Origin: Natroniella sulfidigena
GTDB lineage: Bacteria > Bacillota > Halanaerobiia > Halobacteroidales > Halobacteroidaceae
NCBI RefSeq assembly: GCF_023223645.1
Contig: NZ_JALKBY010000005.1
Coordinates: forward strand, 62,001 to 126,000
Direction: 5' to 3'
Length of the DNA: 64,000 nucleotides
Shown: piece after piece, positions 21,952-29,822 of the stretch
Layout: the number at the start of each line of letters is the position of its first letter
How positions within the stretch are numbered: the stretch's first letter is position 1
Notes under the pieces: generated by a model
Seen by the model: only the letters and a program-made list of their open reading frames with translations
What the model was told of the DNA's origin: nothing
Databases searched by the model: none
Program-made: the position numbers and the translations under genes

Positions 21952-21978
21952 TATATCACTTTAAGGTTTTATTTATTT
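21929..21978. terminator. Perfect 25-bp palindromic bidirectional terminator
   Basis: A perfect inverted repeat of 50 bases centred at 21953/21954, with A-rich left and T-rich right ends. It overlaps the last codons of both convergent genes and can end transcription in both directions. Confidence 0.88.
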
Positions 21979-22261
21979 AATCTAACATTTGTTCAGGAAC
22001 ATGGCTAGCTTGATCTATTGCTTGTAAGGTAGCATCAGCTGCATCTAAGTACTTTTTGACTTTTTTAATATTCGTAGTCAAAAAGTTTAGGTGTTTTGAA
22101 AAAACATCTGTATTTTGAAAGAAAATGAATAAAATTATCAAAAGTAATAATAAATCACTATCAAGATAATCTAGGAGATTTTGTTGAAGATTATTATTAG
22201 ACTGGGAATTAGAACTACTATTTTTGCTATCCAAATCATCCATTTTTCTTTTATCTTCCAT
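21977..22261 (-). CDS. Unknown small membrane protein
   Basis: From the ATG at 22261 (AAAGGAGGG nine bases upstream) the protein has 94 residues. Residues 1-35 are polar and rich in Ser, Asn and Gln; a strongly hydrophobic run LLLLLIILFIFF follows, then a basic and amphipathic C-terminal region ending VPEQMLD. It does not match a family I recognise. It is divergent from another Asn/Gln-rich protein at 22425, and the shared style and 163-base gap suggest they are expressed together, possibly in sporulation. Confidence 0.6.
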   Translation of the reverse strand: MEDKRKMDDLDSKNSSSNSQSNNNLQQNLLDYLDSDLLLLLIILFIFFQNTDVFSKHLNFLTTNIKKVKKYLDAADATLQAIDQASHVPEQMLD

Positions 22262-22424
22262 CCTGACTAATCCCTCCTTTAATTGAAATATTAAAAATTT
22301 CAACTTCTCTAATTCAACTTTTTACAATATATACTACGAATTAGATAAAAGAAATGTGATTTTTTAAGAAACTTTTTATCTTTCCTTTAATATACTTATT
22401 AGTAGAAAAAGGAGGAGAGATAGT

Positions 22425-23009
22425 ATGTATCAGGATGATTACTTATTTTTTCCTGAAGCTCAGCTTGTTGATAAGTTATTGAGTGTTTTTAATATTCAGT
22501 CTCAACAGCAATTAGAACCCAATACAGTTGTTACAATTCTTGGGCTGTTGAATTTATTGAATATTGTCAACGTAATGCAAGAACAGCAAGGACAGAATGA
22601 TTTGTCTAATCAGCTAGCAAGTTTAGTAGGTAACTCGAATACTTCTAATAATTCCTTTGAAAATAATAATCAAACAGATAATTTACAACAGATTCAGCAG
22701 TTATTTAATAATACTACTGGTAATAACTCCAATGCTTCTAATGCAGGTGACATAGGTAGCCTTTTATCTAACTTTTTACAACAAGATAACAACCAAACGA
22801 ATTCAGCTTTAAATAATATTTTAGGAATGCTAGGAAATAATAATTCAGATGGTAAACTAGATCCAACTTTATTATTAAAATTGATGAATTTAATCAGCCA
22901 GATTAAAGAAAGTAAAGAGCAGAGTAAAGAAAGTGAAGCTCAAGAAACAAATCAACCAGTTAAGTCAGAACCCTATAATGATGAGGAGGGAAAAGAGGAA
23001 CAGGAGTAA
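22425..23009 (+). CDS. Unknown Asn/Gln-rich protein
   Basis: A 194-residue protein with a well-formed AAAGGAGGAGAGATAGT ribosome site. It starts with YQDDYLFFPEAQLVDKLLSVF, has a hydrophobic helix (TVVTILGLLNLLNIVNVM, about 38-55), then a low-complexity middle (about 60-140) rich in Asn, Gln and Ser, and an acidic tail (DEEGKEEQE). No signal peptide or enzyme motif is visible. Low-complexity Asn/Gln-rich proteins of this sort occur among spore surface proteins, but that is only a guess. Its mRNA ends at a hairpin shared with the convergent parM-RHH operon. Confidence 0.6.
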   Translation: MYQDDYLFFPEAQLVDKLLSVFNIQSQQQLEPNTVVTILGLLNLLNIVNVMQEQQGQNDLSNQLASLVGNSNTSNNSFENNNQTDNLQQIQQLFNNTTGNNSNASNAGDIGSLLSNFLQQDNNQTNSALNNILGMLGNNNSDGKLDPTLLLKLMNLISQIKESKEQSKESEAQETNQPVKSEPYNDEEGKEEQE

Positions 23010-23046
23010 AAAAGATATGCCAAGCCATATCACTATGGCTTGGCAT
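23008..23046 (-). terminator. Terminator of the parM-like/RHH operon
   Basis: A 12-bp perfect stem (23017-23028 with 23035-23046). Read on the minus strand it is followed by ATCTTTTTT. It also lies just after the stop of the plus-strand gene. Confidence 0.8.
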
Positions 23047-23047
23047 T

Positions 23048-23419
23048 CTAAAAATCATTCAACAGATTTAAAACTTGTTCTGTTTTTTGTTCTTGACTTC
23101 TACCTTCATAAATTTCTGAAGTTTTTTGAGTATAATTAGGATTAAAATTATTTTCGGTTAGTTCTTTTAATAAGAGTTGATTTTTCTTAATTAACTCTTT
23201 GATTTTTGTTATTTCTTTATCAGCTAGATATTTTTGCTTAACTACTTCAGGTTGTGGTAAAGAAGAGGAGGGCTTGTCTTGTTTGAGATAACTTTTAATT
23301 GCTTTTCTAATAAATTCTGATTTACTTTGACAAGCTTCTATCTCTTTTTCAATTGCTTTTATTTCTTCTTCTTCAAAAAACTTTTTAGTAATTCTAACGC
23401 TTAAAAATAATTTAGACAT
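23048..23419 (-). CDS. Ribbon-helix-helix protein, putative partner of the ParM-like actin
   Basis: A 123-residue protein whose N-terminal 50 residues (LFLSVRITKKF, then a helix and SKSEFIRKAIKSYL) read as a ribbon-helix-helix DNA-binding domain. The rest is a charged helical region. It begins 13 bases after the parM-like stop with AGGTGA as ribosome site; an upstream in-frame GTG overlaps that site. Position and fold match ParR-type adaptors that tie the actin filament to a centromere site. The assignment as ParR is inferred from context. Confidence 0.75.
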   Translation of the reverse strand: MSKLFLSVRITKKFFEEEEIKAIEKEIEACQSKSEFIRKAIKSYLKQDKPSSSLPQPEVVKQKYLADKEITKIKELIKKNQLLLKELTENNFNPNYTQKTSEIYEGRSQEQKTEQVLNLLNDF

Positions 23420-23432
23420 AATTATCACCTAA

Positions 23433-24599
23433 TTATCCTTCTTGAGCAGCAGCAGTATTTTTAATCGCTTTCAGTTTCCTTTCTTTGGCTTTTTCTTTTA
23501 ACTTGTTATGTCGCTTACGCTCTAGAGCTTTTCCTAATTTAACATAGCCTCTACAATTGCTCAATTGGGGATTTTTATTTACTCTTTCACATGGAAAGCC
23601 TTCTAAGTAAGTATCTAAGCTTTCAAATAGTAATACAGTAGCTCCACCAGTAATTAAAATTTTATCGATCATAAGATAAGATTCCCAACGATTTTTAATT
23701 TGTAAAGCAATATCATAAGCCAATTTATCAATAGCCTGTTCTTTGGTTCTTTGAAATTCATACTTTTCATTTCTAACTTTAATATAATCTTTCTCTTTTA
23801 GGATTTGATTTTTAATAATATCTTGAGAAACATCTATATCTAGAGAATCTTGAATCTTTTTAAAGATCCTTGTCTTAACTCCATCACTAAAAGAGATTGG
23901 TGAATCTTTAATTAGTTCCCCATCATTAAAAGCAACACAATCAATGGTCAACCCTCCTAAATCTACAATCCCAAAGCCACCTTCAATCTTTTTAGTAACT
24001 AATCCTTCTTTGTTCATTACAAAATCATAATAAGAAGCTAATCCCTGTGGAATTACTGTTGCCTTTCTGATTTCGATTTCTTTAGTAACAAATTGATTAT
24101 TTACATTTTTGATCTTGACTTTAAACTTATTTTCAAGTTTATTCTTAAATAAATCTTTATGATTTTCATAATACTTAATTGGTAATCCTGTAATTAAATG
24201 TTTTATATTGATCTTATCTGCTTTAGGAAATAGTAAACAAATACCTGATAGTAGCTTTGCAAATTCTTCTGGGTTTTTATATTTGTTATCTGATAGTGAA
24301 TAAGCAATTGAAGAGGAGTGTTGATTTAGGACATAATCTCCAACACGATAGCTAGTAAATTCAGGATTTTTAACCCCTTTAATTAGCTGGTCTTGAATCT
24401 TGATAATAATTTTTTGAGAATTAAATTCCCCAACTAACTCTTCTTCTTTTTTAATTACTTGAAATGATGTTTCAGATAAAACTCCTTGACCATCTTTTTC
24501 TGCTAAAGATGGAAAAACAATTTCTTGCTCATCATTAAGCATTTTAACTGAGTCATAACCTAAATCGACCCCAAGGACATTAACATTTTCTATTCTCAT
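23433..24599 (-). CDS. ParM/StbA-family actin-like ATPase
   Basis: The 388-residue protein has the actin-fold ATPase landmarks: phosphate-1 loop VLGVDLGYDSVKML near 9, phosphate-2 GIVDLGGLTIDCVAF near 207 and the adenosine motif ILITGGATVLLFESL near 315. ParM/StbA/Alp proteins form dynamic filaments that push plasmid copies apart, and some phages and chromosomes also carry them. Here it lies between ordinary chromosomal genes with an RHH partner and a consensus promoter. The C-terminus is very basic (KERKLKAIKN). Cargo unknown. Confidence 0.85.
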   Translation of the reverse strand: MRIENVNVLGVDLGYDSVKMLNDEQEIVFPSLAEKDGQGVLSETSFQVIKKEEELVGEFNSQKIIIKIQDQLIKGVKNPEFTSYRVGDYVLNQHSSSIAYSLSDNKYKNPEEFAKLLSGICLLFPKADKINIKHLITGLPIKYYENHKDLFKNKLENKFKVKIKNVNNQFVTKEIEIRKATVIPQGLASYYDFVMNKEGLVTKKIEGGFGIVDLGGLTIDCVAFNDGELIKDSPISFSDGVKTRIFKKIQDSLDIDVSQDIIKNQILKEKDYIKVRNEKYEFQRTKEQAIDKLAYDIALQIKNRWESYLMIDKILITGGATVLLFESLDTYLEGFPCERVNKNPQLSNCRGYVKLGKALERKRHNKLKEKAKERKLKAIKNTAAAQEG

Positions 24600-24671
24600 T
24601 GTTAATCTCTCCTTTTAAATTTTTAATCAATTACTTGTTTTAGTTACGGTTGTCCAAAAGCTTATATCAAT

Positions 24672-24700
24672 ATTATAACTCAAGTTACATTTTTTGTCAA
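24672..24700 (-). promoter_or_regulatory. Consensus promoter of the parM-like operon
   Basis: On the minus strand TTGACA (24695-24700), a 17-base spacer and TATAAT (24672-24677), a perfect vegetative promoter about 70 bases before the start codon. I saw no iterated direct repeats typical of a parC centromere around it. Confidence 0.85.
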
Positions 24701-24725
24701 ATGATAAATATTAATACATCAAATC

Positions 24726-24761
24726 AAAAAAAAGACGGTATCCATGGTGGATACCGTCTTT
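24726..24761 (-). terminator. Terminator of the excisionase-like gene
   Basis: A 14-bp stem (24731-24744 with 24748-24761) with a run of T on the minus strand. Confidence 0.85.
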
Positions 24762-24770
24762 CTTATTTTG

Positions 24771-24959
24771 TTAATTTTGTTGCTCAGCTAGTTTTTCATT
24801 TAGAAATTCATCTAAGTCTTTTTTTCTGATGATCCACTTTCCTCCAAGCTTAATGCCTGGTAGCTCATCATTATTTAGCATATTATATATTGTTGTTTCA
24901 GAGCGATTTAAGTATTCAGCCACGTCTTTTACAGTAAAGTTTTCTTTAGAATTACTCAT
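24771..24959 (-). CDS. Excisionase-type helix-turn-helix DNA-binding protein
   Basis: A 62-residue protein: FTVKDVAEYLNRSETTIYNMLNNDELPGIKLGGKWIIRKKDLDEFL, the compact winged HTH_17 (MerR/excisionase-like) fold. Such proteins are phage or integron excisionases, plasmid regulators or stand-alone repressors. The ATG at 24959 is chosen because GGAGGG abuts the earlier in-frame ATG at 24968. It is upstream of the ParM-like operon on the same strand but separated by its own terminator, and could regulate it. Confidence 0.82.
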   Translation of the reverse strand: MSNSKENFTVKDVAEYLNRSETTIYNMLNNDELPGIKLGGKWIIRKKDLDEFLNEKLAEQQN

Positions 24960-25326
24960 TTTAGTCATCCCTCCTTTTAAATAAATATTTTAGAGAAGAA
25001 TAATTTTTGAAGAAATTATAACTTGATCTATTTTCAGAAAATTTGCTAATTAGAAAGTATATCTTCGATACTTTATAGTAGTTCAACACTTTCTTGATAG
25101 AGCTAATAAAAACAAAAAGGTTTAAATAGTATTTAGTAACAAATAGGTAAAGGTAAAAAAATAGTACCTTTGCTTTATATTATACTAGAAAGTTGACTGA
25201 TTTTTCAATAATTTTGGACAAAAAAGTAAAGTTTTTTGAAATTTTGATTCAGTAGCAACACTCAGAAATTTTTTGGCTTATTTGTAAATCAAATCGAACC
25301 AGACTTTAAAGTCTGGTTCGATTTAA
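24960..25326. other. 367-base non-coding gap with a minus-strand promoter and a terminator palindrome
   Basis: On the minus strand TTGAAA (25203-25208), an 18-base spacer and TATAAT (25179-25184) could start the excisionase-like mRNA with a leader of about 210 bases. A 17-bp perfect palindrome at 25291-25324 follows the small gene at 25327 and probably ends that transcript. The rest is AT-rich with no reading frame that I can support. Confidence 0.5.
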
Positions 25327-25509: not shown

Positions 25510-26487
25510 TTATCTAATTAAGGGAATCCATTTTTGTTGAATTATATTGACTTCTGGTTCTTCCATCATTTTATCCTGATTTATTTTTCCTATAAATGTA
25601 AAAGAGTCTAAAGCTTTCTTACTCTCTATATAGCCTCCACTAACCTTAAACTGATTCTGTTCATCTGTATATTCTAAAGGTTGAAAGGGACGTTGTAATT
25701 CTAAATCTCTTTCATACTCTTCATATAAGCGCCAGATTAAGTCTTCTAGTTTAGAGTTAGGATATTTAACTGGTAATTTAATTTTATTAGCTTCTTGGCG
25801 GGAGATCATATAATTATGAGCATAAAGTTTTTCAGTTAAATAATTAATAATATTTTCAACAACTACTTCATCTTCTCCTAGTGGATGTAGAGATAGTAAT
25901 TTTTTAGCTGTAGATCTGATTAAGAGATAGTTACGATGAACATTGCCTAAAGCTAAGGGATGGACTTTATTAGCCAAATGTGAAAAGACTGTGATTAAGT
26001 TCTCTTCACTTTTTAAGTTGAATTTTTCTTGGGCCAAATTTAAATAAGAGCTAACATCTTCAACACTGATTGGGATTTTAGCTGTAGGATTATTTGGATT
26101 TTGTGGATTGAATGCATTAGCTACTGTAGGATCTATTGGCCCTAGCTCTCCCATCTTGCCCATTACTATTTCGTTGGCCCCTAAACAGATCAATGTGCCT
26201 GCACTATAGGCTCGAAAGGGAACTAATACACTGAAATGATCTGTATATTCTCTGATTAGATTGATTAAACGCCAGGGAGTTAATACATCTCCACCTCTAG
26301 TATAGATGAATAGATCGATCTTTTCTTTTGGAGAAATTTTTTCTAAATGTTGATAAATAACTTTAATAGCATCAGGTGCAATTCTAGTACTGATATTTTT
26401 TCTATCTCCAGTGACGTAGCTAAGCACAGTTGAGTTACGTAAACTGCTGATTTGATTTATGATCTTTAATCTATTTTCTCGGCCCAC
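25510..26487 (-). CDS. SDH-family Clp-fold serine proteinase
   Basis: A 325-residue protein of the serine dehydrogenase proteinase family (ClpP/SppA fold). Visible family motifs are DLFIYTRGGDVLTPWRL near 58, the nucleophile region RAYSAGTLICLGANEIVMG near 92 and MGELGPIDPTV near 112. It lacks a signal peptide and is presumably cytosolic. The physiological substrate is unknown in the family. It heads a two-gene unit with the 54-residue protein and is divergent from two Hsp20 genes, which suggests stress-related protein turnover. Confidence 0.88.
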   Translation of the reverse strand: MGRENRLKIINQISSLRNSTVLSYVTGDRKNISTRIAPDAIKVIYQHLEKISPKEKIDLFIYTRGGDVLTPWRLINLIREYTDHFSVLVPFRAYSAGTLICLGANEIVMGKMGELGPIDPTVANAFNPQNPNNPTAKIPISVEDVSSYLNLAQEKFNLKSEENLITVFSHLANKVHPLALGNVHRNYLLIRSTAKKLLSLHPLGEDEVVVENIINYLTEKLYAHNYMISRQEANKIKLPVKYPNSKLEDLIWRLYEEYERDLELQRPFQPLEYTDEQNQFKVSGGYIESKKALDSFTFIGKINQDKMMEEPEVNIIQQKWIPLIR

Positions 26488-27881: not shown

Positions 27882-29822
27882 ATGGCACTAATAGATAATA
27901 AAGCAGAACGAGTTTTTCCAAAACAGATTATTGACAAAGAATTAGTTCAACAGTTTAAGGGTAATTTGAGCTTGCCAACTTATTTAATTGAAAATTTAAT
28001 CTTAACCTACCAAGATGATGAGACTAGCTTGGATGAAATTGAGCAACTATTGAACCAACAAGTGGTTAAGACTAAGGATGATTTAAAAGTTCAAAATAAG
28101 ATTAGACAAGCAGATCAGATGATTATAGATAAAATTATGGTTAAAATAAGAAATAAGGCTGAATACGAAGCTCAAGTATTGAACTTAGGTCTTAAAAAAG
28201 CAAAGATTAAACAAGAGGTTGTGAAAAAATATCCTGGTTTATTAGAGAATGGAGTATGGGCCAAAGTTTCTGTTAGCTATCTTGAGGATCAGAATAAATT
28301 TGAAATAACAGAGTTGACTCCTATTTATAATACTAATTTTGATTTAGAAGAATTTAAAGAGAAGCGAGAAGAGTTTACTGATTTTCAATGGCGTTGCTTT
28401 TTGCTTAGAAGTATTGGATTTGAACCGCTAGATCTCTCAGAGAGAAAGAAGTTGCTTTATTTAAGTAGATTAATTTCCTTTGTAGAAAAAAATTATAATT
28501 TTATTGAATTAGGCTCACGAGGAACGGGTAAATCTTATACTTATCGCCAATTATCTGAACAATCTATCCTGGTTTCGGGAGGTAAGACTACAGTCGCTAA
28601 TCTCTTTTATAATATGGGAACTAAGCAAGTAGGTTTAGTAGGCAAATGGGATGTAGTTGCTTTTGATGAAGTAGCTTATATTGATTTTAAAGATAAAACT
28701 GCAGTACAGATTTTAAAAGATTATATGGAATCAGGTTCCTTTAGTCGGGGCCAAGAAGAGATTGTTGCTGAGGCATCAATGGTCTTTTTAGGAAATATAA
28801 ATCAGGATATTTCTGTCTTAATAAATCAAAGCCATTTATTTAAGCCTTTGCCACAAGTAATGCAAGATATAGCCTTGATTGATCGTTTTCATTTTTATTT
28901 ACCTGGCTGGGAGATGGAGCGATTAAAAGAAGATTGCTTTACTACCCATTATGGCTTACAGAGTTCTTATCTAGCCCAAGCTTTAGCTGAATTGAGAGAG
29001 TTAGATTTCAAAGGAGTGTTAGATGAGCATTTTGAGTTTGATCAGAAGATGGATGTCCGTGATAAGCGAGCTGTCAAAAAGACTGTAGCTGGTTTTTTAA
29101 AATTACTACATCCGCATGGGAAATTTGATCAAAAAGATTTAAGAAGTTATTTAGATCTTGCTTTAGAAGGAAGAAAGAGGGTTAAAGAACAACTAATCAA
29201 GATGGCTCCGTTTGAATATGAAGAGACCAGTTTTAATTATGTAGAACAAGAGAGTGGACAACAATTTCATATTTATCTTCCTGAGCAGAGAATGGATACA
29301 GGGTATAGGCGTGAGTTAGCCAAGCCAGGAACAGTCTATATTGGCCAAATTCTTGAAAGCCAAAAATTTGCTCTGCTTAAATTAGAGATCAAGATAAAAG
29401 CAGGCCAGGGAAAGTTGCTTTTTACTGGTCAGTTAGATCATAACTTAAAAAAACAGATTAGAAAGACATTTCTTCATTTGAAAAATAGAAAGTTAAATCT
29501 AAGATTAAAAAATAAAGTTGAACAGAATGATTTTTATGTTAAGGTTACCTCTTTGATGCATCAAGTAACTGCTGATATTAGTAATGCTTTCTTAATTGCA
29601 GTGTATTCTTTGTTAAATAATAAATCAGTCCCTAATGGTTTATTAATTACAGAAGAGAGTAGTCTGTATCGTAAAGCAAAATCAAACTTTACTTTGAAAG
29701 CTTTAAAAGTAGAGAGTGAAACAGGAAAGGTTAAAACTTTATTGCCATTGCAAAAGGATAATATTTTTATTGAAGTTCCTAGTGAAGTGATTGCTTATGC
29801 TCCTTATTTTATTAAGGTCTGA
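27882..29822 (+). CDS. brxL: Orphan BrxL: Lon-like AAA+ protein of the BREX family
   Basis: A 646-residue protein matching the BrxL (TIGR02688) family. After an N-terminal domain of about 200 residues comes an AAA+ core: ELGSRGTGKSYTYRQLSEQ as Walker A near 211, VVAFDEVAYIDF as Walker B near 260, FLGNIN as sensor near 304. The C-terminal 130 residues resemble a Lon protease domain. In BREX phage defence BrxL acts with BrxA, BrxB, BrxC, PglX and PglZ; none of these is in the window. Single brxL-like genes are known, with undefined function. The ribosome site is weak (GTGGTGATATATCAAG). Neighbours are a Clp-fold protease, Hsp20 genes and a cold-shock protein. Confidence 0.85.
   Translation: MALIDNKAERVFPKQIIDKELVQQFKGNLSLPTYLIENLILTYQDDETSLDEIEQLLNQQVVKTKDDLKVQNKIRQADQMIIDKIMVKIRNKAEYEAQVLNLGLKKAKIKQEVVKKYPGLLENGVWAKVSVSYLEDQNKFEITELTPIYNTNFDLEEFKEKREEFTDFQWRCFLLRSIGFEPLDLSERKKLLYLSRLISFVEKNYNFIELGSRGTGKSYTYRQLSEQSILVSGGKTTVANLFYNMGTKQVGLVGKWDVVAFDEVAYIDFKDKTAVQILKDYMESGSFSRGQEEIVAEASMVFLGNINQDISVLINQSHLFKPLPQVMQDIALIDRFHFYLPGWEMERLKEDCFTTHYGLQSSYLAQALAELRELDFKGVLDEHFEFDQKMDVRDKRAVKKTVAGFLKLLHPHGKFDQKDLRSYLDLALEGRKRVKEQLIKMAPFEYEETSFNYVEQESGQQFHIYLPEQRMDTGYRRELAKPGTVYIGQILESQKFALLKLEIKIKAGQGKLLFTGQLDHNLKKQIRKTFLHLKNRKLNLRLKNKVEQNDFYVKVTSLMHQVTADISNAFLIAVYSLLNNKSVPNGLLITEESSLYRKAKSNFTLKALKVESETGKVKTLLPLQKDNIFIEVPSEVIAYAPYFIKV

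Follow-up and report, generated by a model that had tools for sequence, protein, structure and literature searches.

The ParM gene of this locus is the actin of a conserved five-gene cassette, ordered HTH-ParM-RHH-B-A, which is under purifying selection, switches between plasmids and chromosomes, and includes two small genes, A and B. With moderate confidence, we read the locus as an intact ParMR filament operon within a cassette that has been passed down in the family Halobacteroidaceae, residing on Rep_3 plasmids in one branch and on the chromosome in the others. The window, i.e., the whole 64,000-nt stretch analysed, covers bases 62001-126000 of a 136.5-kb contig from the 2.63-Mb genome of a salt- and alkali-loving member of this family, whose nearest relative within the named genome collection is Natroniella acetigena Z-7937. 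Since the contig carries purH, purL, hflX, rlmH and rpoN, it is chromosomal; plasmid or chromid status is thereby ruled out, and the core-gene surroundings described for the operon in a first-pass annotation are real. That annotation also placed its open reading frames correctly but missed A and B, which belong with ParM, RHH and HTH. The features of the locus are:

21977..22243, minus strand: gene A, 88 aa, membrane-anchor-like, remote homologues beside cotJABC, SASP or gpr
22244..22424, no strand: divergent A/B control region
22425..23009, plus strand: gene B, N/Q-rich protein of 194 aa in convergent orientation to parR, with remote homologues next to sleB or rsmA/ksgA
23017..23046, no strand: perfect 13-bp inverted repeat, terminator-like, between the convergent parR and B
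23048..23419, minus strand: ParR-like adaptor, called from RHH pattern, position and conservation; alternative start GTG at 23428
23433..24599, minus strand: ParM-type actin-like ATPase, 388 aa, supported by Pfam, phrog_691 and solved ParMs
24671..24700, minus strand: sigma-A-type promoter of parM-parR, TTGACA-17 bp-TATAAT, starting 101 bp upstream of the parM ATG
24728..24764, minus strand: terminator-like inverted repeat between HTH and parM
24771..24968, minus strand: HTH_17/'excise'-type DNA-binding protein, 65 aa, upstream of parM in 8/8 genomes

Judged by its nucleotide-binding motifs and its similarity to solved ParMs, the predicted actin is a member of the ParM family, as had been proposed for this position. 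It matches the Pfam models ALP_N (E-value 2.7e-20) and MreB-like_C (5.7e-9), each exceeding the gathering score, the phage partition-protein family phrog_691 (6e-43), and the solved ParMs of pCBH (1e-14), chromosomal Dh-cParM1 (9e-14) and pSK41 (1e-7). The motifs GVDLGYD, PQGLA, VDLGGLTID and ITGGA are invariant or nearly so among the eight orthologues. AlphaFold models, built from 7-8 sequences, were weak (pLDDT 55 for ParM, 69 for the RHH protein); the fold matches of the weak ParM model were nevertheless headed by ParMs, with Dh-cParM1 at the top, and the Foldseek matches also included a cyanobacterial CorM filament. No close relatives were found among the plasmids and phages of PLSDB and INPHARED, where matches reached about 20-28% identity. 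The perfect promoter reported in front of parM was confirmed; it is kept in 6/8 family genomes, one with TTAACA.

In type II partition systems, ParM filaments work together with an RHH adaptor. The RHH gene was indeed found 13 bp behind parM, taking ATG 23419 as its start. Its match to Pfam RHH_1 (E-value 0.013) lies below the gathering score, so that the assignment is based on pattern, position and conservation, the gene being conserved in 7/7 relatives in which it is readable. The protein consists of an N-terminal RHH (SVRIT ribbon, KSEFIRKAIKSYLK helix), a variable linker and a conserved C-terminal tail (Y.G..Q..TEQxLNLLNQF). Hydrophobic tails resembling this one are encoded downstream of several other ParMs, which would fit a filament-binding end. 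A search of the PDB with the RHH structure model (pLDDT 69) yielded no useful match. Mean column identity among family orthologues is 77% for ParM vs 55% for the RHH protein, as expected for an actin paired with a fast-evolving adaptor.

The gene upstream of parM encodes an excisionase-like protein, with scores above the cut-off for both HTH_17 (E-value 2e-17) and TIGR01764 'excise' (48.3 bits, cut-off 28.8). Taken alone, however, it says little about mobility, contrary to what had been suggested: it is a family-wide HTH gene, no integrase was seen beside the chromosomal cassettes read in G002 and G004, and the scaffold G005:C8 is the only one of the copies read with an integrase gene near the cassette. 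Repeat searches for a parC array near the promoter, in the window and in the plasmid copies gave nothing convincing, in agreement with the first-pass annotation, which had seen no centromere-like repeat array near the promoter; short or degenerate sites could escape such searches. Since the plasmid copies show no array either, its absence is uninformative and not a mark of loss.

A ParM orthologue (66-90% identity) is present in all eight genomes of the family, which answers the earlier question of its presence in sister genomes, and is absent from the other ~93 relatives searched. Likewise, profile searches with ParM, RHH, A and B across about 101 genomes gave orthologue-level matches in these eight and nowhere else. 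The five-gene block is retained in 8/8 while nearly all of its surroundings change: the wider chromosomal neighbourhood is common only to the Natroniella pair, and the neighbours differ in the other six genomes. In the window, an SDH-type ClpP-like serine protease gene (25510-26487, minus strand), 93% conserved between both Natroniella genomes, lies directly upstream of the cassette. A BrxL-like Lon-related protein is encoded at 27882-29822 (plus strand); no other BREX gene was recognised among the neighbouring genes tested.

Between the two Natroniella genomes, G000 (the source of the window) and G001, ParM has the lowest dN/dS (0.049) of the 12 genes compared, followed by values such as 0.053 for HTH, 0.057 for the Clp-SDH gene, 0.086 for A, 0.089 for B, 0.10 for rlmH, 0.16 for htrA and 0.20 for RHH; these ratios are approximate, as dS nears or exceeds 1 for some genes. 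ParM is under strong purifying selection and decay is excluded. The ParM tree broadly matches the RpoB tree, in which the plasmid-bearing species form one clade, and we conclude that inheritance has been mainly vertical; the position of Natroniella, which is weakly supported, differs between the trees.

The cassette is chromosomal in G000, G001, G002 and G004. In four other relatives, including the Orenia-type ones, it is carried by Rep_3 plasmid-like contigs (G003, G005, G006, G007), which bears out the proposal that a plasmid-type ParMR of mobile ancestry resides on the chromosome. One of them is the 7629-bp contig G006:C51, in which a Rep_3 initiator gene adjoins the cassette; a 95-nt stretch of 21-bp iterons recurs at both of its ends, as expected of a circular plasmid, here of 7.5 kb. 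On G007:C11 (6990 bp), the RHH gene spans the contig ends once the frame is corrected by one base where they meet. On the 31.7-kb contig G003:C4, a Rep_3 initiator gene likewise adjoins the cassette, and the contig has three Rep_3-type genes in all as well as transposase-like genes; G005:C8 holds it together with ParA-like and integrase genes and, elsewhere on the scaffold, Rep_3; G005:C8 and G007:C11 are gapped scaffolds. The Rep family of G006 was not detected in G000, G001, G002 and G004, exactly the genomes with chromosomal copies. In G004, the cassette splits the xseA-xseB pair, whose two genes adjoin each other in G000, G001, G002 and the outgroup G011; thus, the cassette moved as a unit. 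No convincing flanking duplications were found at the cassettes of G004, G002 and the window.

The two forms also differ in gene content. All plasmid-form cassettes have a gene X of about 120 aa, with weak DUF6788 similarity, between HTH and parM (L038:3044-3409; L039:5135-5500; L037:8991-9341; L035:9356-9727), which the chromosomal ones lack. Inserted in the G004 cassette are a group II intron reverse transcriptase gene and a winged-helix-like gene (L036:6576-7655). Independently of the cassette, G000 harbours a circular 25-kb element (G000:C16; L040, L146) with its own intact ParM, only 35% identical to that of the cassette, and a small downstream gene; hence, a plasmid-type ParMR also exists separately in the same genome. 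This element appears phage-plasmid-like, with a D5-type primase and a tape-measure-like ORF.

A and B accompany ParMR in all family genomes (8/8), and no convincing second copy of either was found in these genomes. Protein A has one strongly hydrophobic segment (DSDLLLLLIILFIFF) and a helix-like C-terminus. Outside the family, cotJ adjoins A-like genes in seven of about 16 good loci, mostly with SASP, and gpr does so in one; five loci with B-like genes have sleB close by, and others have rsmA/ksgA. Relatives of A also occur without any ParM neighbour. By comparison, among 70 control loci that had been retrieved for unrelated purposes, none showed spore genes of the kind adjoining the A/B homologues. 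Among 113 non-family genomes, 11 have both genes, 3 only A, 11 only B and 88 neither (Fisher p = 3e-7, indicative only, as the genomes are related). Spo0A does not discriminate, since it is present in all these genomes, including those without A/B. The remote homology of A and B rests on short low-complexity proteins, and neighbouring genes alone do not prove a spore role.

Upstream of A, the motif AC-N15/17-C(A/G)TANNNT, a pattern picked after viewing the alignment, was found in two versions, which cover 5/8 and 6/8 cassettes each on its own and 8/8 together. For the version with a terminal TA, the count of 6/8 compares with an average of 0.08 in 500 shuffles and a highest value of 2, and 12/14 unrelated A loci carry this version as well. 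The motif resembles late mother-cell (sigma-K-type) promoters. In contrast, the parM promoter is vegetative-type, with no regulation seen in common with A. Small membrane-type proteins were noticed (L157, L158, L159, L160, L072, L073, L076, L069, L070), a number of them beside cotJ, SASP or ksgA, with an upstream motif resembling GTAACAAAG-N-CGTATSATA. They may form a candidate late-sporulation family, whose member in the window has no Pfam or NCBIfam model. The suggestion that the filament system was recruited for spore or cell biology is, therefore, supported only indirectly, through the linked genes A and B and not through ParM itself; a narrow literature search for a link between ParM and sporulation also returned nothing relevant.

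Our preferred reading would work as follows. ParM probably polymerises with ATP, while a dimer of the RHH protein is likely to bind a site in cis, probably including the promoter, and to hold the filament ends with its conserved C-terminal tail. On plasmids, ParMR would separate sister copies; on the chromosome, where the operon remains under strong selection, its most likely role is still to bind the DNA surrounding its locus and to position it. The cassette would carry A and B as a sporulation-type gene pair on behalf of the entire family, and this would account for the fact that neither plasmid nor integrated copies are ever lost. A more far-reaching version, which we put forward as speculation and rate as rather improbable, makes HTH, ParM, ParR, B and A one functional unit linking DNA segregation to sporulation, in which ParMR would place the replicon for entry into the spore and A/B would act in the mother cell or spore envelope. 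If so, the replicon entering the spore would be the plasmid or the chromosomal region bearing the cassette.

Selection could instead act on A and B for their spore function, with ParMR as mainly a passenger that came from a plasmid and perhaps still aids the segregation of related plasmids. Each family genome has one detected copy of A and one of B, both in the cassette, and the circular element with its own ParM is still present in G000; these findings would fit. On the other hand, a passenger should decay first, whereas ParM has a lower dN/dS within Natroniella than A and B and the lowest of all 12 genes, and the ParM of the resident element is only distantly similar; we therefore consider this explanation unlikely, if worth keeping in mind. 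Doubtful to a greater degree is the recruitment of ParMR to a non-DNA cytoskeleton for cell shape or membrane, comparable to what is reported for FcmBC of cyanobacteria; A might then serve as a membrane anchor. The FcmBC precedent (PMC12645912), the CorM filament in the Foldseek list and the membrane-type segment in A speak for it. However, the RHH ribbon and helices are retained, a replication gene adjoins plasmid copies of the same orthologue, and relatives of A stand next to spore genes without a ParM neighbour. A limited literature search on the Anabaena CorMR system found nothing relevant. That the operon is a decaying relic of an integrated plasmid, one of the options of the first-pass annotation, is very improbable: the chromosomal copies do lack the Rep gene and gene X of the plasmid copies, but intact frames, a conserved promoter, invariant nucleotide-binding motifs, retention in 8/8 genomes and the strong purifying selection seen in the dN/dS of 0.049 contradict it.

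Chromosomal ParMs have only recently been described, and the family offers a natural experiment, with the same orthologous ParMR on plasmids vs chromosomes; such pairs allow a direct comparison of the changes upon domestication. Further, single-copy, spore-type A and B suggest a concrete reason for a small plasmid to persist throughout a bacterial family. Among known systems, type II partition (ParMRC of R1 and pSK41; pCBH ParM) shares the gene order, the actin fold and a putative RHH adaptor, and the cassettes of relatives lie on Rep_3 plasmid-like contigs. In contrast to type II ParMRC, no parC array was detected, the Natroniella copy is chromosomal, and identity to R1-, pSK41- or pCBH-type ParMs is only about 12-20% (fold alignments with the weak model). 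Nguyen et al. (2025) described FcmBC, which controls cell shape in filamentous cyanobacteria and likewise consists of a plasmid-type ParM with a ParR-like partner, fixed on the chromosomes of a clade (PMC12645912); unlike FcmBC, the cassette keeps the RHH pattern, plasmid forms persist, and the linked genes point to sporulation. Chromosome-encoded ParMR (Dh-cParM1, Cb-cParM) was reported by Ali et al. (2025; PMC12270681). It is similar in having, in Firmicutes, a chromosomal ParM with a downstream RHH ParR, conserved within a clade; Dh-cParM1 ranks first among the fold matches of the Natroniella ParM and belongs to its best sequence matches. The Natroniella-type operon is likewise chromosomal and conserved among related chromosomes, yet it is plasmid-borne in half of the relatives and, in contrast to cParMR as presented there, is kept family-wide on both kinds of replicon, joined to HTH, A and B in one block. 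A family-wide ParM orthologue alternating between plasmid and chromosome together with spore-type genes does not appear in the accessible parts of Ali et al. (2025) and Nguyen et al. (2025). Thus, while chromosomal ParMs as such are already known, a replicon-switching cassette that carries spore-type genes represents a new form of such a system.
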